Shown: positions 4,554 through 14,455 of the stretch, piece after piece
Position numbering within the stretch: the stretch's first letter is position 1
Layout of the letters: each line of letters begins with the position of its first letter
NCBI GenBank assembly: GCA_020444165.1
Contig: JAHLLK010000034.1
Span: 1-57,332 of the forward strand
Direction: 5' to 3'
DNA from: Deltaproteobacteria bacterium
GTDB taxonomy: Bacteria > Desulfobacterota > Desulfarculia > Desulfarculales > Desulfarculaceae
Length of the DNA: 57,332 bases
Position numbers and translations under genes: made by a program
The notes under the pieces: model-generated
What the model was told of the DNA's origin: nothing
The model's input: the letters and a program-made list of their open reading frames with translations, nothing else
Databases searched by the model: none

Positions 4554-5696
4554 TCAGTCCCAAAGCTCCAGGTATTGATCCAGCCCGCCGCGAACCTGGT
4601 CGAAAATATTCTGGGCCGAGCTGCCGGCCATGGAGCCGGCCGTCTGGCCATTGGACAGGATGACGATGTCATAGTCCTGGTAGCGGTACATGGCCGCGGT
4701 GTAGACGCCGTCGTAGTCGCCGTTGTGACCCCAGGCGCCATGGGAGTTGGCCACGCCCAGGCCGTAGCCCACGTTGGGGTCATTCCCCACCGGCAGGGCG
4801 TCCAACTGGGCCTCGTGCATGGCCGGGCTCAACAGCGTGCCGGCCAGCAGGGCGTCCAGCCAGACCAGGAGATCACCCGCCGTGGAGATCATGCTGCCGG
4901 CGGCGCCGAACACCGAGATGTTGCGGCTGGTGGAAGAATCTTCCGCCAGGAAGGGGCCGGAGCCGTCGGGTTGAGTGGCCTTCAGGTAGCCGTGGGCGTA
5001 GGGGCTGGGCAGGCTGTTGTCATAGGGCACCGAGGTGTGGCTCAAGCCCAGGGGGGCGATCACCAGTTCTTGGAGCGCCTGCTGATACTTCTGGCCGGTG
5101 GCTTGTTCCAGTATGTACTCCAAGAGACGGTAGTTGAGGTTGTTGTAGTCGGCCACCTGCCCCGGCGGGTTAACCTGCCGGTTGACGTAGGACAAAATCT
5201 CCGGGACCGTGAATCCCCGCTCGGGCTCGGCCAGGGCCAGCGCGGTCAACTCCGCGCTGTTTTCCGAGTGATCCAGGCCGGAGCGCATGTCCAAAAGATC
5301 GCGCACCGTGATCTCGTCGCCGCCCGCCACCTGGCCGGGCATCCACTGGTCCAGGGTGTCCTCCAGCCCCACCTGACCCTGATCCACCAGCTCCAAAATG
5401 GCCGTGGCCGTGAAAGTCTTGGTGACGCTGCCGATGTGGAAGTAGAGGTCCTTTTGCATGGCCTGGTGGGTGGCCAGGTCCGCTTGGCCCTCGGTGAAGT
5501 AGGCCACGTTGCCCTCGCGGTCCCGGACGGCCATCACCGCCCCGGGGACCTGGCAGCCCTCCACCGCGGTGGCCAGGGCGTCGGCCAAAACACTGCGCAG
5601 GTCGTAGTTCAGTAAGGGCCGCGAGGCGGCCCGAGCGGCGGGGGAGGAACCGAAGCAGACGAGCATCAAGAGGATAAAGGCGAACTTCCGCGGCAT
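4554..5696 (-). CDS. exported serine hydrolase, class C beta-lactamase / D-Ala-D-Ala carboxypeptidase fold
   Basis: A penicillin-binding-protein-like serine hydrolase of about 380 residues. It opens with a signal peptide (MPRKFAFILLMLVCFGSS, then AARAAS). The nucleophile motif is SVTK in GSVTKTFTATAIL, the second motif is the YNNLNY region, and HNG in WGHNGDYDG takes the place of the KTG triad. The start at 5696 is preceded by GGAGAG on the minus strand; a start 75 bases further upstream (5771) is also open but would bury the signal peptide. The family covers esterases, peptidases and beta-lactamases, so resistance should not be assumed. The gene stands alone, with its own predicted promoter at 5793..5821. 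Confidence 0.85.
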   Translation of the reverse strand: MPRKFAFILLMLVCFGSSPAARAASRPLLNYDLRSVLADALATAVEGCQVPGAVMAVRDREGNVAYFTEGQADLATHQAMQKDLYFHIGSVTKTFTATAILELVDQGQVGLEDTLDQWMPGQVAGGDEITVRDLLDMRSGLDHSENSAELTALALAEPERGFTVPEILSYVNRQVNPPGQVADYNNLNYRLLEYILEQATGQKYQQALQELVIAPLGLSHTSVPYDNSLPSPYAHGYLKATQPDGSGPFLAEDSSTSRNISVFGAAGSMISTAGDLLVWLDALLAGTLLSPAMHEAQLDALPVGNDPNVGYGLGVANSHGAWGHNGDYDGVYTAAMYRYQDYDIVILSNGQTAGSMAGSSAQNIFDQVRGGLDQYLELWD

Positions 5697-5792
5697 GGCT
5701 GCACTCTCCATCCAAAGGGGGGAACACAGGGACAACCACAGAGGCGACTCGCCCATCCGTAGGCGCGGCATGATGCACGGTTATTTCGCCAA

Positions 5793-6437: not shown

Positions 6438-8906
6438 TTACTCCCCACCCTCCCACAAAGTCTTATACGCCTCGTTCAGGATCGGCAGGTCCAGGCCCAG
6501 GGCTTGGGCGGCGGTGTGGGCGGTTTTGAGGTCCAAATAGGGTTGGGGCCGCATTCGGTTGGCTTCCATCTGTTGGTGGAGCTTGGCGGCGCCGGCGGCG
6601 GCGTCCTTGCCCTTTTTGGCCTGGGAGCCCAGGCGGCGGCCAAAGTCGCGGCTGACGCCGCCCAGGCCGGCCGAGGCGAAGGTCACGGCCCAGGCGGGGC
6701 CGGCCAGGGTGAAGGTCTCGGGCCGGGCCCCCAGGGCCAGGCCGAGGCGCTGCACCTCGGCCCCGGCCCGGGCCATGTACCAGCCGGTCTGGGCCGGGGT
6801 CTGGATGTCTTGGCGGCCAAAGAGGAACTGGCCCCACAGGGCGTAGACCCGGGCCAGGGTGTCGGCGGCCATCACCCCCACCGGGTCCTTCTGGGTCACC
6901 ACCTCCAGGGGCGGCCACTTGAAAAGGTCGGCCAGTTGGGTCAGTGACGGCCCGTCGCCGGCCAGGATGCCGATGGTCGGGTTGCCCTCCACCAGGTCCA
7001 CGTCCTTCACCGCGCCCACCAGGGAGAACAGCTCCACGTCCTGGCGGCCGTGGCGGGCGGCCAGGTCCCGGGCCAGCGAGATGGGCAGCTTGTGGCTCTT
7101 GGCGTCGAAGCCCCGGGTGGCCACCACCAGTTTGACCTTTTGCTCGCAGGTGGCCAGGATTTCCACCAGGAACTTGGCCACGTCGTCCGGACCCACGGCC
7201 AGGATCACCTCCGAGGCCTTGCGGAAGGCTGCCGTGCTGTCGCTGGTCACGAACACGTTCTTGGGCAGGAGGTGGTCCTCGAAGCGGCCGGGATGGTTGC
7301 GGTGCAGGTTCAGCTCGGTGGCCACCTCGGGCCGCGAATCGTAGAGGGTCAGGCTGGCGTTGAGGTAGCGCTTTTCTTCCAGGATGCGGTTGCCCACCGC
7401 GCAGGCAAAGGCAAAGCCCCAGTCACCGCCACCCACCACCACGATGTTCTGGTCCGCGGTGGGGGAGTAGATGCGCCGGTCGCCGTGGGTGGCGTAAAAG
7501 GCCAGGCCGGCCTGGTTCTTCACTTCGGGCAGGCGGTGCAGGTCCTTTTTGAAGCGATACAGCACGCCCCGGCGCTTCAGGGTGGCCAGGCCATCGGCCA
7601 CCACTTCCGTCAGGGTGTGCTGGTGCAGGAAATCTTCCAGGTCCGGGTCGTGGCCAAAGGTGGCCCGGTGGTACTCCCGGAGCCGTTTGGTCTCGTCGTC
7701 CACCAGGGCGGCCAGGTCCACCTTGCCGCTCTCCAGGCGGCGGGCCCGCACCAGGCCCCGGGCCACCAGCTGACTGGCCATGACCTTCTTGGCCCCGGCG
7801 ATGTCCCGGATGGCGGTCAGCGCCACGAACTCGTCCAGGCTGCGGCCGCCCTTGTCCTGGGTGTGGGCTTCCTTCAGCTCCGACAGGAGCCAGGGCCGGG
7901 GAAAGGAGACAAAGGCCCGGCCGTAGAGGTTCTGCACCCGGCGCCAGACCCAGGAGCGGGGATGGATCAGGGCGGTGGCCAGGCTTTTCCAGAACCCGAT
8001 GCCCCGCACCCAGGCGCGCGCGCCCTTGCGGTCGGCCAGGGGCAGGTCCTCGGGCACGACGGAGTAAGACACGGCCACCGGCTGCACCACCACGTCGCCC
8101 GACACGTCCAGGGCGCCCCGCAGGGTCACCAGGCGGCGGGGGTAGCGCAGGCTGCCGTCGCGGCTGCGGGCCCCACCGTGCCAGGCCTCCAGGAAGATGC
8201 CCTGGGTGCCGCCGCACTCGCTGATGGCCCGGCAATAATTGTAGAGGCTGGCCAGGGCCTGGCGGCTGGCCCCCCGGCGCTGCACCACGTAGGAGCCGTT
8301 GATCAGCACCTTGGCGAGGCTGCCCACGGCCATCATGTTGTCGCCGGCCGCGAACAGGGGCAGGGGCAGGTCGTTGTTCAAGAGCACCCCGTCGGTGAGG
8401 AACTCGTCCATGTGCGAGGAGTGGTTCACCAGATACACCACGCCCAGGCCCTGGGCCTGGTACTGGCGCAGCAGTTCCAGGTGGGCGGTGTCCCGGCCGT
8501 CGGGCGAGGTGAAGGGCCGCACCGGGTCCGGGGAGTCGAACAATCCGTTGTAGACGGTCATCACCGCCACGGCGGCGGTGCGCAGGATCTCGAGTTCGTA
8601 GCGGCAGCGGATCTGGTCGACGAATTTGGCCACCTGAGCCGGGTTGCCGGGCTCGCCCTCGGCGGCCAGTTGGGTCAGGGTCAGCTCCCGGGCGGTCTGG
8701 ATGATGCGCTCCTGCAGCTCCTCGGGCCAGGAGGGGGGCATGTCGGCGAAACGCTCGGCCCAGGGCTGGCCGGACTCGGAGTCGGCGATGCGGTGCAGGA
8801 GCTTGATGAAATCGATGCGGTTGGCCGTCTTGACCACGTTCCGGGAGAAGGACCGCGAGAACTTCTTGGTCAGGGATTTTTTCCGCGGGCGGGGACTCGC
8901 CGCCAT
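6438..8906 (-). CDS. fusion of PlsB-like glycerol-3-phosphate (or DHAP) acyltransferase and GpsA-like glycerol-3-phosphate dehydrogenase
   Basis: One uninterrupted protein of 822 residues. The front half carries the four acyltransferase blocks of the PlsB/DHAPAT type: HSSHMDE (His162, Asp167), GSYVVQRRG (204-212), FLEAWHGGARSR (238-249) and VVQPVAVSYSVVPE (273-286). The back half starts at about 487 with a nucleotide-binding loop VVVGGGDWGFAFA, followed by GpsA-like landmarks (ILAVGPDDV, VVATRGFD, VEGNPTIGIL, SRDFGRRLG at 752-760). GpsA turns DHAP into glycerol-3-phosphate and PlsB acylates it, so the fusion could make lysophosphatidate directly from DHAP. The usual GpsA lysines are not evident (TRGF; ADTLARVYAL at 681-690), so an altered reaction such as acyl-DHAP reduction is possible; that is inference. 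The start at 8906 follows AAGGAGGTT. It is the last gene of the minus-strand sugar block, 74 bases after the SDR gene. Confidence 0.8.
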   Translation of the reverse strand: MAASPRPRKKSLTKKFSRSFSRNVVKTANRIDFIKLLHRIADSESGQPWAERFADMPPSWPEELQERIIQTARELTLTQLAAEGEPGNPAQVAKFVDQIRCRYELEILRTAAVAVMTVYNGLFDSPDPVRPFTSPDGRDTAHLELLRQYQAQGLGVVYLVNHSSHMDEFLTDGVLLNNDLPLPLFAAGDNMMAVGSLAKVLINGSYVVQRRGASRQALASLYNYCRAISECGGTQGIFLEAWHGGARSRDGSLRYPRRLVTLRGALDVSGDVVVQPVAVSYSVVPEDLPLADRKGARAWVRGIGFWKSLATALIHPRSWVWRRVQNLYGRAFVSFPRPWLLSELKEAHTQDKGGRSLDEFVALTAIRDIAGAKKVMASQLVARGLVRARRLESGKVDLAALVDDETKRLREYHRATFGHDPDLEDFLHQHTLTEVVADGLATLKRRGVLYRFKKDLHRLPEVKNQAGLAFYATHGDRRIYSPTADQNIVVVGGGDWGFAFACAVGNRILEEKRYLNASLTLYDSRPEVATELNLHRNHPGRFEDHLLPKNVFVTSDSTAAFRKASEVILAVGPDDVAKFLVEILATCEQKVKLVVATRGFDAKSHKLPISLARDLAARHGRQDVELFSLVGAVKDVDLVEGNPTIGILAGDGPSLTQLADLFKWPPLEVVTQKDPVGVMAADTLARVYALWGQFLFGRQDIQTPAQTGWYMARAGAEVQRLGLALGARPETFTLAGPAWAVTFASAGLGGVSRDFGRRLGSQAKKGKDAAAGAAKLHQQMEANRMRPQPYLDLKTAHTAAQALGLDLPILNEAYKTLWEGGE

Positions 8907-8980
8907 GGTGAACCTCCTTCATTTTTAGCGGCCCCAACTTTACCCCGGGCCGCCAAGCCTGGCAATCCGGCCGGCCGGGG

Positions 8981-9769
8981 CTACCAGGCGGTCCAGCCGC
9001 CGTCCAAGACCAGGTTGGCCCCGGTCATGTAGGCCGCGGCCGGGGACAGGAGGAACACCACCGCCCCGTTGTACTCGTCCTCGGCCGCCATGCGGCCCAG
9101 GGGCACCCGGCGTTGGTAGCCCTCCAGAAAGCGGGGGTCCTGCTGGTTGAACACGCCGCCCAAGGTGAGGGTGTTCACGCGCACCCCGCGGGGAGCCCAA
9201 TAGGTGGCCAGGTAGCGGGTCAGGTTCAACAGCGCGGATTTGCTGGCTGAATAGGCCACGGGCTTGAAAAAGGTCTCGCCATCCTGGCGGCGGTACTCAT
9301 AGAGGCTCTGGTCCGGGCTCACCACCCCGTAGATGGAGGCCACGTTGACGATGGCGCCGCGCCCGGCCCGGGCCATGGCCCCGCCCACCACCTGGCAAGT
9401 GAGGAACACCCCCTTGGCGTTGACCTCCATGACCTGGTCCCAGGACTCCTCGGGGTAATCCTCAAAGGGGCCGTTCTCCGCGGCCGGAGCCCCGGGCGGG
9501 GAGTCCAGGGCCGCGTTGTTGATCAGCCCGGTGGGGGCGCCCCAGGCCTCCTCCACCTGGGCCAGGCTGTGGCGCAGGCTGGCCCGGCTGGTCACGTCCA
9601 CGGCCAGATTGAGCTGCCCGGGCCGGCCGGCCGGCGGGGCGGTGCGGTCGAACACTGCCACCCGGGCCCCGCGGTCCAAGAGCGCTCCGGTGTACTGCCG
9701 GCCCAACTGGCCCAGGCCGCCGGTGATCACCACCACCTGGCCCGTGAGGTCGAACAAGGGATCAGGCAA
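8981..9769 (-). CDS. short-chain dehydrogenase/reductase (SDR) of the sugar cluster
   Basis: A 262-residue classical SDR. The cofactor loop is TGGLGQLGR near the N-terminus, NNAALDS gives the NNA element, and the catalytic pair is in YSASKSA (Tyr-x-x-x-Lys). The C-terminus ends in LVLDGGWTAW, typical of classical SDRs. The start is TTG at 9769, preceded by GGAGG and overlapping the upstream phosphatase gene by 8 bases, so the two are translationally coupled. SDRs also sit in legionaminate clusters (PtmA of Campylobacter), where they are thought to adjust a sugar intermediate. The substrate here is not known. Confidence 0.85.
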   Translation of the reverse strand: MPDPLFDLTGQVVVITGGLGQLGRQYTGALLDRGARVAVFDRTAPPAGRPGQLNLAVDVTSRASLRHSLAQVEEAWGAPTGLINNAALDSPPGAPAAENGPFEDYPEESWDQVMEVNAKGVFLTCQVVGGAMARAGRGAIVNVASIYGVVSPDQSLYEYRRQDGETFFKPVAYSASKSALLNLTRYLATYWAPRGVRVNTLTLGGVFNQQDPRFLEGYQRRVPLGRMAAEDEYNGAVVFLLSPAAAYMTGANLVLDGGWTAW

Positions 9770-10277
9770 GGGCCGTGCCTCCTTCCTCCAGAACCTCGGC
9801 CAACAAATCGCAGAACTCGCGCACCGCGCCGTGGCCCCCGGGCCGGGTGGTCACCAGGCGGGCCAGGCGCCGCACCGCGGGGTGGGCGTCGGCCACCAAG
9901 ACCGGCACCCCCACCGCGGCCAGGCAGTCCCGGTCGTTGAGATCGTTGCCCAGGTAGGCTGCTTGGGCGAGGGACAGGCCCCGCGCGGCCAGGATCTCCT
10001 CCAGCACGGCCAGCTTGTCGTCCAATCCCTGGCGGCAGGCCAGGCCCAGCTTGCGGCAGCGGTGGCCCACCACGGGGTTCTTCTCGGTGGAGAGCACCAC
10101 CAGCTCCACCCCCAGGCGCTTGAGCCGGGCCAGGCCCAGGCCGTCGGCCCGGGTGCAGCGCACTGCCTCGCGGCCGTCCTCGAACACGTACACCGCGTTG
10201 TCGGTGAACACCCCGTCGAAGTCAAAGGCCACCAGCCTGACCGCCCGGAGCGCCTCCCGGTCGGGGGGAGAGATCAT
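9762..10277 (-). CDS. HAD-family sugar-acid phosphatase, KdsC/YrbI type
   Basis: A compact 171-residue HAD phosphatase with no cap domain. Motif I is FDFDGVFTDN, motif II is STEKN, the conserved lysine is in GLDDKLAVL and motif III is YLGNDLNDRDCL. This is the KdsC pattern, which removes the phosphate from 3-deoxy-octulosonate or nonulosonate 8/9-phosphates. The start at 10277 overlaps the synthase stop codon by 4 bases (ATGA), and the upstream in-frame extension is Gly/Pro-rich and unlikely to be translated. Its presence suggests that the neighbouring synthase makes a phosphorylated product (as in the sialate-9-phosphate or KDN-9-phosphate routes); this is inference from context. Confidence 0.88.
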   Translation of the reverse strand: MISPPDREALRAVRLVAFDFDGVFTDNAVYVFEDGREAVRCTRADGLGLARLKRLGVELVVLSTEKNPVVGHRCRKLGLACRQGLDDKLAVLEEILAARGLSLAQAAYLGNDLNDRDCLAAVGVPVLVADAHPAVRRLARLVTTRPGGHGAVREFCDLLAEVLEEGGTALA

Positions 10278-11326
10278 GCCTCCAGGTCCTCCCAGGCCAA
10301 CATCTGGTCCGCGGCCAAGGGCCGGGCCAGCTTGCGGCCCACCACCACGTCCCACTCGTAGGGATGGAGCCCCCCTGCCGGAGATTTCAGGGCCAGGTCC
10401 GCCTCGCCGAGCACGGCGCCGGCGGCCAGGTCCCGGGCGGCCACGATGGCCTTGCCCATCTTCATGATGGGCTTCTCCTCGCTGGGCAGCACCCGCTTAA
10501 CCCCGTCGCCCATGGCCTCCCGGGCCCTTTGGAGGTCCCTGACCAACTTGCGGAGCCCCTCGGGCTCCAGGCTGAAGGCGTGGTCCGTGCCTTTCATGGC
10601 CCGGTTCAGGGTGAAATGCTTCTCGCTCACCCGGGCGCCCATGACGTAGGCCACCACACTCATGGCGATGCCGCTCTGGTGGTCGGAGAGGCCCAAGACC
10701 GCCCCGGGGAAGCGCTCGCGGTAGGTGTCCAACACCCGCAGGTTCATCTCCCGGGGCTCGCAGGGGTAGGCCGCGGTGCACTGCATCAGGCAGATCTGGT
10801 CGTTCAGGGGAGCCACCGCTTCCCAGGCCCGCTCCACGTCGGCCAGGGTGGACCCGCCAGTGGAGATGAACATGGGCCGGCCCAGGCGGGCCACGTAGCG
10901 GAGCAGCGGGATGTTGCGGAGGTCGCCCGAGGCCATCTTGTAGGCCGGCATGTCCAGCTCGGCCAGGAAATCGGCGCTCTTGAAGTCAAAGGCCGTGGCG
11001 AACATGGTGAGGCCCAGCTCGGACGCAAAGGCCAAAAGTTCCTCGTATTCCCGCCGGCCGAACTCCAGGGCCTCGCGGTGCCGGCCATAGGTGGGGCCGA
11101 AGCTGTTCTCGTTCTCATAGGGCGCGTCGTACAGGGCCCGGCTGAAGAGCGTGCGATTGTCCCGCTTTTGCAGCTTGACCGCGTTGGCCCCGCAATCCTT
11201 GGCCCGCCGGAACAGCTCCCGGGCCTTTTCCAGGCTGCCCTGGTGATTGTGGCCGATCTCGGCGATGACGTAGCAGCCGCTCTGGTCGTCGATCACCTCA
11301 CCCGCTACGATAAGTCTTCCCGGCAT
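10274..11326 (-). CDS. NeuB-family nonulosonate (sialic-acid-like) synthase
   Basis: 350 residues with the NeuB barrel signature: VIAEIGHNHQGSLEKA, then NAVKLQKRDN, MASGDLRN, FISTGGSTLADV, LMQCTAAYP and LGLSDHQSGI. The C-terminal part (about 285-345, RDLAAGAVLGEADLALKSP) is the SAF antifreeze-like domain that closes the active site. NeuB enzymes condense phosphoenolpyruvate with an aldose to give a 3-deoxy-2-ulosonic acid. The start follows GAGAAGG. No epimerase (NeuC) or aminotransferase gene is beside it, so which aldose it uses cannot be read from the window. Confidence 0.9.
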   Translation of the reverse strand: MPGRLIVAGEVIDDQSGCYVIAEIGHNHQGSLEKARELFRRAKDCGANAVKLQKRDNRTLFSRALYDAPYENENSFGPTYGRHREALEFGRREYEELLAFASELGLTMFATAFDFKSADFLAELDMPAYKMASGDLRNIPLLRYVARLGRPMFISTGGSTLADVERAWEAVAPLNDQICLMQCTAAYPCEPREMNLRVLDTYRERFPGAVLGLSDHQSGIAMSVVAYVMGARVSEKHFTLNRAMKGTDHAFSLEPEGLRKLVRDLQRAREAMGDGVKRVLPSEEKPIMKMGKAIVAARDLAAGAVLGEADLALKSPAGGLHPYEWDVVVGRKLARPLAADQMLAWEDLEA

Positions 11327-11498
11327 CTAAGCCTTCTCTTTGGCGGAGAGGCCTGGCGGCCCTTCCGGTCGGGCAACGGGCCTTCCCTGGCCCGCCGCCA
11401 TGGTTGTCCTTCTGCACCCGCGCGCCAGCCCCGGCGCTTCGGTCGCTGCTGAGACGCGCCCAAGGATGGCCTTCCCCATTAAAACACTAAAGTTTTTT

Positions 11499-11519
11499 GG
11501 GGGAAGGGGGGGTTCCCCC
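11499..11519. terminator. G/C-run hairpin between the transketolase and synthase genes
   Basis: GGGGGAA (11499..11505) pairs with TTCCCCC (11513..11519) around seven G. It is preceded on the plus strand by AAAACACTAAAGTTTTTT. A closely similar A/T-then-G block lies beside the 14456..14499 terminator in the opposite orientation. It may weaken read-through in the 221-base gap after the transketolase gene. Confidence 0.35.
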
Positions 11520-11547
11520 CACATTCCTCTTTTTCTCCTAAAACCTC

Positions 11548-13476
11548 TTAACCAACCTCCCCCAAATCCCGCCGCACGGCGGCGGCCAGGTGGGCCGCGT
11601 CCAGGCCGTGGTGGGCCAGCACTTCGTCGGGGTCTCCCCAGGCCGGCACGCCGGTGACGGCCAGTTGCCGGAGGGTAGTTTGCCGGAATTGGGGGTCGTT
11701 CCACAGTTCGGCCCTGAGGGTGTCGGCCAGGCCGCCTTGGGGCCCGTGGTCTTCCAGTATATAGAGCAACTCCACCCCGGCCAGGGCCGTGGCCAGCCAT
11801 TTTCGGTCCAGGCGGTTCAGCCAGGGCTGATTGATGACTTTGAGCTCCACCCCTTCGGCGGCCAATTCCTCGCCGGCGGCCAGCGCCTGGGCCAGCATCA
11901 GGGGGCCGTAGGCCAGGACCGCGGCCCGGCCGCCGGCCCCGGCCAGGACAGCGCCGCGGCCCGGGGCCAGGGTATAGCCCGGGGGCAGGGTGAGTTCCCG
12001 GGGGCTGGGCGTGATGGGCAGGCGGAGGGCCACCGGGCCCGGGGCCTCTTCCACCGCCCAGGCCAGGGCCTGGGCCGCCTCGTCCGGGTGGCAGGGATGG
12101 ATAACCGCCATGCCCGGCACGCTGCCCATGAGCGCGGCGTCGCGCACGCTCTGGTGGGTGTGCCCCGGGCCGGCTGGCACCAGGCCGGCGTAGTGGCAGG
12201 CGTAGATGATGCGGGTGCCCTCGGACGCGTTGTTGTAGATGTGCTCGGCCGCCCGGCCGGTGAGAAAGGACGCGAAGCTGTTCACCACGGGCAGAAGGCC
12301 GTGGCGGGCCAGGCCCCCGGCGGTGGAGACCATGTCCTGCTCGGCGATGCCGCTCTCGAGGAAGCGCTCCGGGTAGGCGGCGCGGAAATCCTCCAGACGG
12401 CAGTCCAGGGAGAGGTCCGCGTCCAAGACCACCAGTTCGAGGTGCCGGCCGCCCAGTTCGGTGAGGGCCTGGCCATAGCCCTGGGCCACGCTCTGGGCCG
12501 AGAAACCGGGCCAGGTGCGCGGCAGCGGCGGCACCTCCCCGGCCTGGGGCGGCTCCAGACCCAGGTTGGCCAGGGCCTTGCCCAGCCGGGAGGCGATGGC
12601 TTGCCGGGCTCGGGCGTAGGCCTCGTCATTGGGCGCGCCGGAGTGCCAGCGGTACAGGCCGTCGTCCTGGGCCAGGGCCAGGGGGTGCTCCATGAAGGCC
12701 ACGCCGCGGCCCTTGATGGTGTCGGCGATGATCACCCGGGGCCGGTCCGGCGGGGCCTCGCCGCCCAGGGCGGCCAGGAGCTGGTGGAAGTCGTGGCCGT
12801 CAATGCGCTCCACCCGCCAACCAAAGGCCCGGAACTTGGCCGGCAGGTCGCCCAGGGGGCTGGTCTCGGCCACCAGGCGGTCGGACTGCACCTTGTTGTG
12901 GTCCACCACCACGGTGAGGCCGGCCTCCTGGTTGGCCGCGGCCAGGAGCGACTCGTAGATCTGGCCTTCCTGCAGCTCGCCGTCGCCGGTCATCACGAAC
13001 ACCCGCCCGCCCCGGCCCAGGATGCGCCGGGCCAGGAAGGCGCCCTTGGCCTTGGCGATGCCCATGCCCAGGGACCCGGTGTTGAACTCCATGCCCGGGG
13101 TGGACACGTCCGGGTGGCCGCAGGGCCCGGCCAGGCGGCGCAGCGCCAGGAGGTCCTGGTCGCTCATGAGCCCCAGGGAGTGCAGCACCGCGTAGAGCCC
13201 GGGCACGTCGTGGCCCTTGGAGGAGAAATAGATGTCCCGTTCCGGGTGATCCAGGCCCACCGCCGCCGTGTTCAGCACCGCGTAATAGAGGGTGGTCACG
13301 ATGTCCAGGCTGGAGAGGCTGGAGCCCAGATGCCCCGAGCCGGCCCGCTTCACCGCGGCCAGGGTGTTGAAGCGGCACATGTCGGCAAGGAACGCGAGCT
13401 TCAGGGGCAACAAAAGCTCGGAGTCCCGCACGCGGGCGAACTCCGGGGCAGGGTAGATGCTGGTGTCCACAGGCAT
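11548..13476 (-). CDS. transketolase, full-length single chain
   Basis: A 642-residue two-domain transketolase. The thiamine-diphosphate domain shows GSGHLGSSLS, the metal/diphosphate signature GDGELQEGQIYESLL with the closing VVDHN, and TIKGRGV. The pyrimidine domain carries the catalytic Glu in FLESGIAEQDMVSTAGGLA, and the C-terminal domain follows. Transketolases move two-carbon ketol units between sugar phosphates. Sitting between the cytidylyltransferase gene (42 bases upstream) and the synthase gene, it is more likely a pathway-specific enzyme that shapes the sugar precursor than a housekeeping copy; this is inference from position. The start follows a GGAG-poor leader, so exact initiation is less certain. 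Confidence 0.88.
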   Translation of the reverse strand: MPVDTSIYPAPEFARVRDSELLLPLKLAFLADMCRFNTLAAVKRAGSGHLGSSLSSLDIVTTLYYAVLNTAAVGLDHPERDIYFSSKGHDVPGLYAVLHSLGLMSDQDLLALRRLAGPCGHPDVSTPGMEFNTGSLGMGIAKAKGAFLARRILGRGGRVFVMTGDGELQEGQIYESLLAAANQEAGLTVVVDHNKVQSDRLVAETSPLGDLPAKFRAFGWRVERIDGHDFHQLLAALGGEAPPDRPRVIIADTIKGRGVAFMEHPLALAQDDGLYRWHSGAPNDEAYARARQAIASRLGKALANLGLEPPQAGEVPPLPRTWPGFSAQSVAQGYGQALTELGGRHLELVVLDADLSLDCRLEDFRAAYPERFLESGIAEQDMVSTAGGLARHGLLPVVNSFASFLTGRAAEHIYNNASEGTRIIYACHYAGLVPAGPGHTHQSVRDAALMGSVPGMAVIHPCHPDEAAQALAWAVEEAPGPVALRLPITPSPRELTLPPGYTLAPGRGAVLAGAGGRAAVLAYGPLMLAQALAAGEELAAEGVELKVINQPWLNRLDRKWLATALAGVELLYILEDHGPQGGLADTLRAELWNDPQFRQTTLRQLAVTGVPAWGDPDEVLAHHGLDAAHLAAAVRRDLGEVG

Positions 13477-13518
13477 GGAGCGTGTTCTCCGTTCGGGGGC
13501 GGGGAGGCCGGTTGTGAA

Positions 13519-14265
13519 TCAGGGCAGGGGGTAGGGCGAGGCCTCCACCGGGGGCAGCGCGCAACGCCCCTCGGCCACCCATTTTTCCAACAGCTCGAAA
13601 TCGCTCTCGTAGTCCACGGCAAAGCCTTCGCAGGCGTCGGTGAAGAACGGCGCCACCACCCGGCCCTCCCGGGAGTGGGTCTCGGGCACCACCCGGGCCC
13701 AGGCCATCTCCAGGCTGGAGTTCTGCACGTAGACCTGGGGGCAGTCCTGGTATTGCCGGGCGTGCCACGGCACCCCCAGGTGGTCCTGGTCCAACAGGGG
13801 CCGGATTCGCTCGCCCTCTACCACCCACATCTTGCCGGGGTGTTCCTTGACCAGTTGCACCGCCCGCAAGGAATCGATGCCCGGCAGGGAGACGAAACGC
13901 GCCATGGCCCGGCGGATGGTGGCCGGCAGCCGCAAGGGGCTGGTGGGCCGCAGGATGCTGAAGGTGTCAAAGGGCTCGCCCAAGGCCCCCAGCGCGTGGG
14001 CCAGCCACTCGATGTCCGGGCTGGTGCTGGTGGCGAACTCCGCCGGCCGCAAAAAGGGCGCCTCGGCCCCGTAGTGCCGGGCGATGTCCTGGAACAGCTC
14101 GGAGTTGGTGGAGACCACCACCCGCGCATAAAGGCCGGCCTGCCGCGCGGCCGCGATGGTGTAGGCCAGGAGAGGGTGCCCCAAAAGGGGGCGGATGTTC
14201 TTGTCCTTGACCCGTAGGGAGCCGCTGCGCGCGGGAATCAGGGCCAGGTTTTTCAGGTCAGCCAA
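13519..14265 (-). CDS. CMP-nonulosonate cytidylyltransferase (NeuA family)
   Basis: 248 residues. The nucleotide-binding signature is LALIPARSGSLRVKDKNI, followed by LAYTIAAARQ, VVVSTNSE and the substrate-side block LRPTSPLR, all typical of CMP-sialate/CMP-legionaminate synthetases. The reaction activates the free acid sugar as its CMP ester for transfer by a glycosyltransferase. The start chosen is TTG at 14265, 9 bases after AAGGAGG; a longer frame upstream is Arg/Pro-rich and ignored. It is the first gene of the minus-strand sugar block. No glycosyltransferase lies in the window. Confidence 0.88.
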   Translation of the reverse strand: MADLKNLALIPARSGSLRVKDKNIRPLLGHPLLAYTIAAARQAGLYARVVVSTNSELFQDIARHYGAEAPFLRPAEFATSTSPDIEWLAHALGALGEPFDTFSILRPTSPLRLPATIRRAMARFVSLPGIDSLRAVQLVKEHPGKMWVVEGERIRPLLDQDHLGVPWHARQYQDCPQVYVQNSSLEMAWARVVPETHSREGRVVAPFFTDACEGFAVDYESDFELLEKWVAEGRCALPPVEASPYPLP

Positions 14266-14455
14266 CTGCGAGGACCTCCTTGGACGCCCGGGGCGGGCCG
14301 GGCCGCCGGAACGGGGCGCTTCCCGCCCTTGTACTAACACAGCCGCGCCGAAAGGGGAAACCCTGTTACGAAAGCTTCCCCGCCGGCCGGGTATATCTTA
14401 ACCAAAAGGCGGGAAAAAGCACCCCCCAGGAGACTGTCGGAGAAAGGGGAAGATG

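Follow-up and report, generated by a model that had tools for sequence, protein, structure and literature searches.

A PlsB-like acyltransferase joined to a GpsA-like domain: a probable pseudo-dehydrogenase in Desulfarculales and a sister family that keeps the dehydrogenase residues

In bacteria, PlsB and PlsX/PlsY are the main known routes for the first acylation of glycerol phosphate. Acyltransferases that act on DHAP and on glycerol-3-phosphate (G3P) have motifs in common. A described fusion of a GPDH domain is DsGPDH of Dunaliella salina (PDB 6iuy), in which we take the partner to be a phosphatase and the GPDH to be active; in both respects it differs from the acyltransferase-GpsA (AT-GpsA) fusion examined here. 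Mycobacteria provide a published case, according to an excerpt of PMC10593935, of bacteria that lack PlsX/PlsY and rely on other acyltransferases. A literature search that covered open-licence papers only found no study of an AT-GpsA fusion, and the words 'fusion' and 'fused' have no occurrences in PMC6431249. Two families of such fusions are distinguished below, type I and type II. Public records label their members '1-acyl-sn-glycerol-3-phosphate acyltransferase', 'glycerol-3-phosphate dehydrogenase' or hypothetical, and the type II records are named glycerol-3-phosphate dehydrogenase or hypothetical protein.

The window, which is the whole stretch of 57,332 nucleotides analysed from contig JAHLLK010000034.1, carries a type I gene on its minus strand. 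Its single 822-residue frame begins with a PlsB/GPAT1-type acyltransferase (AT) and continues, from about residue 484, with a GpsA-type fold. The original prediction of a one-frame PlsB-like/GpsA-like fusion is confirmed by the open reading frame, Pfam and homologues, and a likely ribosome binding site and the nucleotide-binding fold that it had placed from residue 487 are likewise seen. The features are as follows.

6438..8906, minus strand: type I AT-GpsA fusion gene, 822 residues plus stop (open reading frame and translation, Pfam, homologues)
8913..8919, minus strand: likely ribosome binding site AAGGAGG, 6 nt ahead of the ATG (read from the sequence)
8007..8516, minus strand: acyltransferase core, residues 131-300 (Pfam and conservation)
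8406..8423, minus strand: motif I, HX4D, H162 to D167 (alignment of 219 type I rows)
8277..8279, minus strand: motif II arginine, R210 (same alignment)
8160..8177, minus strand: motif III, GGARSR, residues 244-249, an EGxRSR motif with Gly for Glu and both arginines retained
8046..8084, minus strand: motif IV, residues 275-287, QPVAVSYSVVPED (alignment of 219 type I rows)
7461..7496, minus strand: junction motif YATHGDRRIYSP, residues 471-482, of which the type II counterpart is FYAYHADRRIYP
6897..7448, minus strand: GpsA-like Rossmann domain, residues 487-670 (Pfam and fold prediction)
7416..7433, minus strand: GxGxWG nucleotide-binding motif, G492-G497, partly worn across the type I family
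7113..7115, minus strand: R598, at the site of Lys120 in human GPD1 numbering (alignment)
6849..6854, minus strand: A685-R686, at the site of Lys204-Asn205 in human GPD1 numbering (alignment)
6441..6896, minus strand: GpsA-like C-terminal helical domain, residues 671-822, conserved less than the Rossmann part

Conservation by region was calculated from 47 aligned fusions. The AT core is the most conserved large region of the type I protein, with a mean top-residue frequency of 0.74 and 40 of 170 columns invariant; the two subdomains of the GpsA-like half score 0.60 and 0.50. The junction region (residues 468-486) reaches 0.86, the highest value among the six regions tested. Residue counts for the wider family come from 219 of 231 type I rows (160 of 164 proteins among the matches listed and 59 of 67 loci), those shorter than 740 residues having been left out. 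This set includes near-copies and falls to 194 rows at 95%; the AT residues are just as well kept after this de-duplication.

The AT half looks active, judged by its sequence. Fold prediction assigns it a GPAT fold, and His162 of motif I, Arg210 of motif II and both Pro276 and Pro285 of motif IV are each present in 219/219 rows; Asp167 is found in 218, with one gap. In motif III, Arg247 is invariant and Arg249 is Arg in 215 rows and Lys in four. The Glu of motif III is not kept. At this position, which aligns to Glu of 9vuq and 8e4y, all 219 rows have Gly (G244), a comparison that rests on alignments to solved GPATs and to the PlsB-like protein of genome G043. The window protein therefore differs from the PlsB/GPAT1/DHAPAT class, whose motif III has Glu, as well as by its extra GpsA-like half, and its acceptor or rate may differ from those of PlsB. 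Arg247 and Arg249 align with R318 and R320 of GPAT1. In an excerpt of PMC11011501, both of these GPAT1 residues touch G3P in simulations, and R320 also forms a salt bridge in 8E50.

The window protein scores 34.3 bits with TIGR03703 (PlsB) against a curated cut-off of 618.5 bits, which marks it as a relative and not as PlsB itself. Its GPAT_C match is below the Pfam cut-off. A profile of the N-terminal half returned 239 matches, and the best 120 of these are all fusions by Pfam, except for P0123 (511 residues), which may be a fragment.

The C-terminal half of type I looks dead as a dehydrogenase. We take K120 and K204 to be the catalytic lysines of GPD1, and Asp260, Arg269 and Asn270 to belong to its active site, with human GPD1 numbering taken from a 6e8y alignment. 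Among the 219 type I rows, Lys occupies the K120 site once (locus L050) and the K204 site (residue 685) never, and Asn occupies the N205 site (residue 686) once; neither lysine site shows one consistent replacement residue in the alignment. By sequence alignment at low identity, K120, K204, N205, D260 and N270, which GpsA and GPD1 possess, are lost in all 47 aligned fusions, R269 is retained in one and T264 in 11. In contrast, stand-alone GpsA proteins from the same genomes keep K120, K204, N205, D260, T264, R269 and N270 in 18/18 cases; these references are 18 of 22 loci, three having been dropped because they had no motif match and one because it is cut by a contig end. PF07479 gives 180.8 bits for a stand-alone GpsA, 25.6 for the window protein and 28.1 for the fusion of locus L015, and a Pfam scan found no PF07479 match in those of L029 (the Smac51 homologue) and L066.

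The fold itself appears to have outlasted these residues. The C-terminal half is assigned a GPDH fold that is predicted to be intact, and the GxGxWG motif is complete in the window protein and present to varying degrees across the 219 rows (G492 in 213, G494 in 184, W496 in 205 and G497 in 189). Type I also has conserved residues of its own in this half: D674 (218/219), Y688 (217/219) and W739 (215/219). The stem of the type I family is long, at 1.48 changes per column.

The same two-domain order recurs across genomes, both in the type I family, which is conserved in Desulfarculales, Adiutrix-type bacteria and Desulfobacterales, and in a type II sister family from Desulfomonilaceae. Type II fusions have the same architecture, the junction motif and a similar length, and the two types are collinear over 726 columns (E 1.3e-88). 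Type II was represented by 111 rows (106 at 95%), consisting of 103 of 114 matches (at least 700 residues) and eight open reading frames from genomes. Unlike the window protein, in which the dehydrogenase residues are lost, type II retains K120, K204, N205, D260, T264 and R269 in 111/111 rows, and the AT His in 109/111. In 8/8 genomes, GpsA searches matched nothing but the type II fusion; among 394 sampled genomes, these eight ranked directly behind 19 strong ones. A Pfam scan gave no match for the AT half of the type II protein of L167. Two fusions (L162:3-2432 and L163:150-2648) keep the dehydrogenase residues, but their AT His is replaced by Tyr and the second Arg of motif III by Ile, the reverse of the loss seen in the window protein.

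The distribution of other GpsA and acyltransferase genes was surveyed with genome profile searches for the fusion, GpsA, PF01553, PlsX, PlsY and PlsB. As to the loss of stand-alone gpsA that the original prediction proposed to look for, a strong separate GpsA (E 5e-46 or better) occurs in 22 of 23 type I fusion genomes; only G003, an assembly of 1.8 Mb, gave none. Among these 23, PlsX has five clear matches and a weak one in G020. Six genomes of the set are Desulfarculales-type, and all of these but G015 have both PlsX and PlsY; normal separate gpsA and plsX/plsY genes are what the prediction had named as counting against it. Eight of the 23, all named as Desulfobacterales or as one of its families, carry a PlsB-like protein that matches at E 1e-125 or better but stays below the curated cut-off, and partial PlsB-like proteins occur in G009 and G008.

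PlsY was followed through the class of Smac51, represented by 30 genomes for which a completeness filter of 90 was requested. The fusion is present in 26; it is split over two contigs in G033 and lies in two pieces of one frame in G042, and the matches in G022, G025 and G026 each cross one stop codon. PlsY is found in 15 genomes. Fusion and PlsY coincide in 13, the fusion occurs without PlsY in 13, PlsY without the fusion in two, and neither in two. In the 13 genomes with the fusion and no PlsY, the PlsB-model (TIGR03703) search matches only the fusion itself. These absence calls come from HMM searches whose controls matched (PlsY in 8/14 and PlsB in 2/14 control genomes), with gaps in metagenome-assembled genomes remaining. 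Profile searches found no fusion, PlsY or PlsB match in G031 and G032, which belong to the same class. One type I fusion (P0074) comes from a eukaryote transcriptome (eukprot) and is probably bacterial contamination.

Of the 13 fusion genomes in which PlsY was not found, one, G015, carries the name Desulfarculales and the other 12 are Adiutrix-type. The loci identify five of these 12, including Candidatus Adiutrix intracellularis and Smac51, and the remaining seven are presumed to be Adiutrix-type from score and order only. The Smac51 chromosome is complete; it carries the fusion, and PlsY was not found in it. Besides the fusion, it has two PF01553 proteins: a 277-residue PlsC-like frame and a 1,136-residue protein with MFS, acyltransferase and AMP-binding domains. 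Because 13 of 26 genomes have neither PlsY nor another PlsB match, the fusion is the best candidate there for the first phospholipid acyltransferase. In most other fusion genomes it coexists with a known acylation system.

The genes around the fusion vary by lineage in a comparison of 67 loci and the window. Upstream on the same strand (window 8981-14340, minus strand) lie genes for an SDR, a HAD phosphatase, a NeuB-like synthase, a transketolase and a cytidylyltransferase, a set that looks like a nonulosonic acid or surface-sugar cluster; its NeuB and HAD frames share positions 10274-10355. Downstream, also on the minus strand (4554-5771), is a gene for a serine hydrolase that Pfam places in the Beta-lactamase family (PF00144). 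One protein cluster, zinc-ribbon-like by eye, lies mostly directly upstream of the fusion in 26 loci, and another that looks lipoprotein-like lies mostly downstream in 21; both are confined to the Adiutrix-type half of the list. In L186 (G386) and L188 (G324), the type II fusion is preceded by GT2 glycosyltransferase and PsbP-like genes, and genes for an OB/HD-domain protein and for a release factor come after it; in L187 (G053) it is flanked by Usp and GNAT protein genes. Gene context was dropped as functional evidence because no conserved lipid operon or lipid-gene neighbour was seen among the 67 loci and the window.

The preferred reading, to which we assign a probability of about 0.7, is that type I proteins are acyltransferases with a pseudo-dehydrogenase, derived from an ancestral DHAP-to-lysophosphatidate fusion that type II has retained. 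The window gene product would be an acyl donor:glycerol-3-phosphate (or DHAP) sn-1 acyltransferase of the PlsB/GPAT1 class. In its N-terminal half, His162 and Asp167 would perform the chemistry and Arg247 and Arg249 would hold the acceptor phosphate. The C-terminal half would retain the GpsA fold for structure, dimerisation or ligand sensing. Presumably, the ancestor had an active GpsA half and both made and acylated G3P, and both sites would survive in type II; in type I, a separate GpsA may have freed the dehydrogenase half from its task, leaving the fold as a structural or sensing partner. Against this reading stand the five Desulfarculales-type genomes with PlsX/PlsY and the eight Desulfobacterales-type genomes with a PlsB-like protein, where the fusion need not be the main GPAT. 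The Gly of motif III, the T264 and R269 that some of the 47 fusions keep and the lack of a conserved lipid-gene neighbour also count against it. The first acylation in Adiutrix-type bacteria could also be performed by a PlsC-like or Aas-like protein instead.

The motif III Gly of all type I rows, and the presence in two orders of PlsX/PlsY or a PlsB-like protein beside the fusion, would suit an enzyme that only resembles GPATs and acylates a lysophospholipid or another phosphorylated alcohol. This is unlikely given the retained motif III arginines and the 13 of 26 genomes with no PlsY or other PlsB match. The channelling originally proposed, in which the window protein would carry out both the reduction of DHAP to G3P and the acylation of that G3P, is consistent with two folds predicted in one chain and with type II, where the dehydrogenase residues persist and no second GpsA was matched in 8/8 genomes. 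However, the catalytic Lys, Asp and Asn are missing from 47/47 type I fusions and Arg269 from 46/47, and a separate GpsA occurs in 22 of 23 genomes, which makes this route very unlikely for the window gene; the bifunctional idea fits type II, and is plausible one branch away.

A dehydrogenase half that remains enzymatic, with non-canonical residues and an altered chemistry or substrate, would explain its intact predicted fold, its own conserved residues and a GxGxWG motif largely retained at G492 and W496. We give this very little credence, since neither lysine was replaced by one single residue, G494 and G497 are more often lost, the type I stem is long and conservation is below that of the AT core. 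Scarcely credible is the acyl-DHAP order, also proposed originally, in which the AT would act on DHAP and the second half would then reduce the resulting acyl-DHAP, feeding ether-lipid synthesis. The domain order fits it, as do the motifs common to DHAP and G3P acyltransferases, but it needs an active reductase, whose residues are lost in type I. Moreover, Desulfatibacillum ether lipids are attributed, in an excerpt of PMC11150832, to Ger, a reductase of glycerol esters that is proposed to act once phospholipids have formed, and no support for ether-lipid coupling of the fusion was found.

A more far-reaching scenario is offered tentatively, as one that we doubt more than we believe. AT-GpsA would have begun as a single-chain DHAP-to-lysophosphatidate enzyme. 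In Desulfomonilaceae it would still be the only GpsA-type G3P dehydrogenase, producing G3P at the site of its acylation. The dehydrogenase of the window's lineage would have turned into a sensor, of redox state or of triose phosphate, by which the first acyltransferase of membrane-lipid synthesis is gated; Adiutrix-type bacteria would have no first acyltransferase other than this gated enzyme.

The two families bear on lipid synthesis in different ways. Type II suggests that G3P synthesis and acylation have been joined in one chain. In type I, the domain that looks dead sits beside a partner that looks active, and the pair of types offers a natural comparison between a working enzyme domain and the same domain retained minus its catalytic residues. 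For bacteria such as Candidatus Adiutrix intracellularis, in which the fusion was found and PlsY and PlsB were not, the fusion is a natural candidate for the first acylation.
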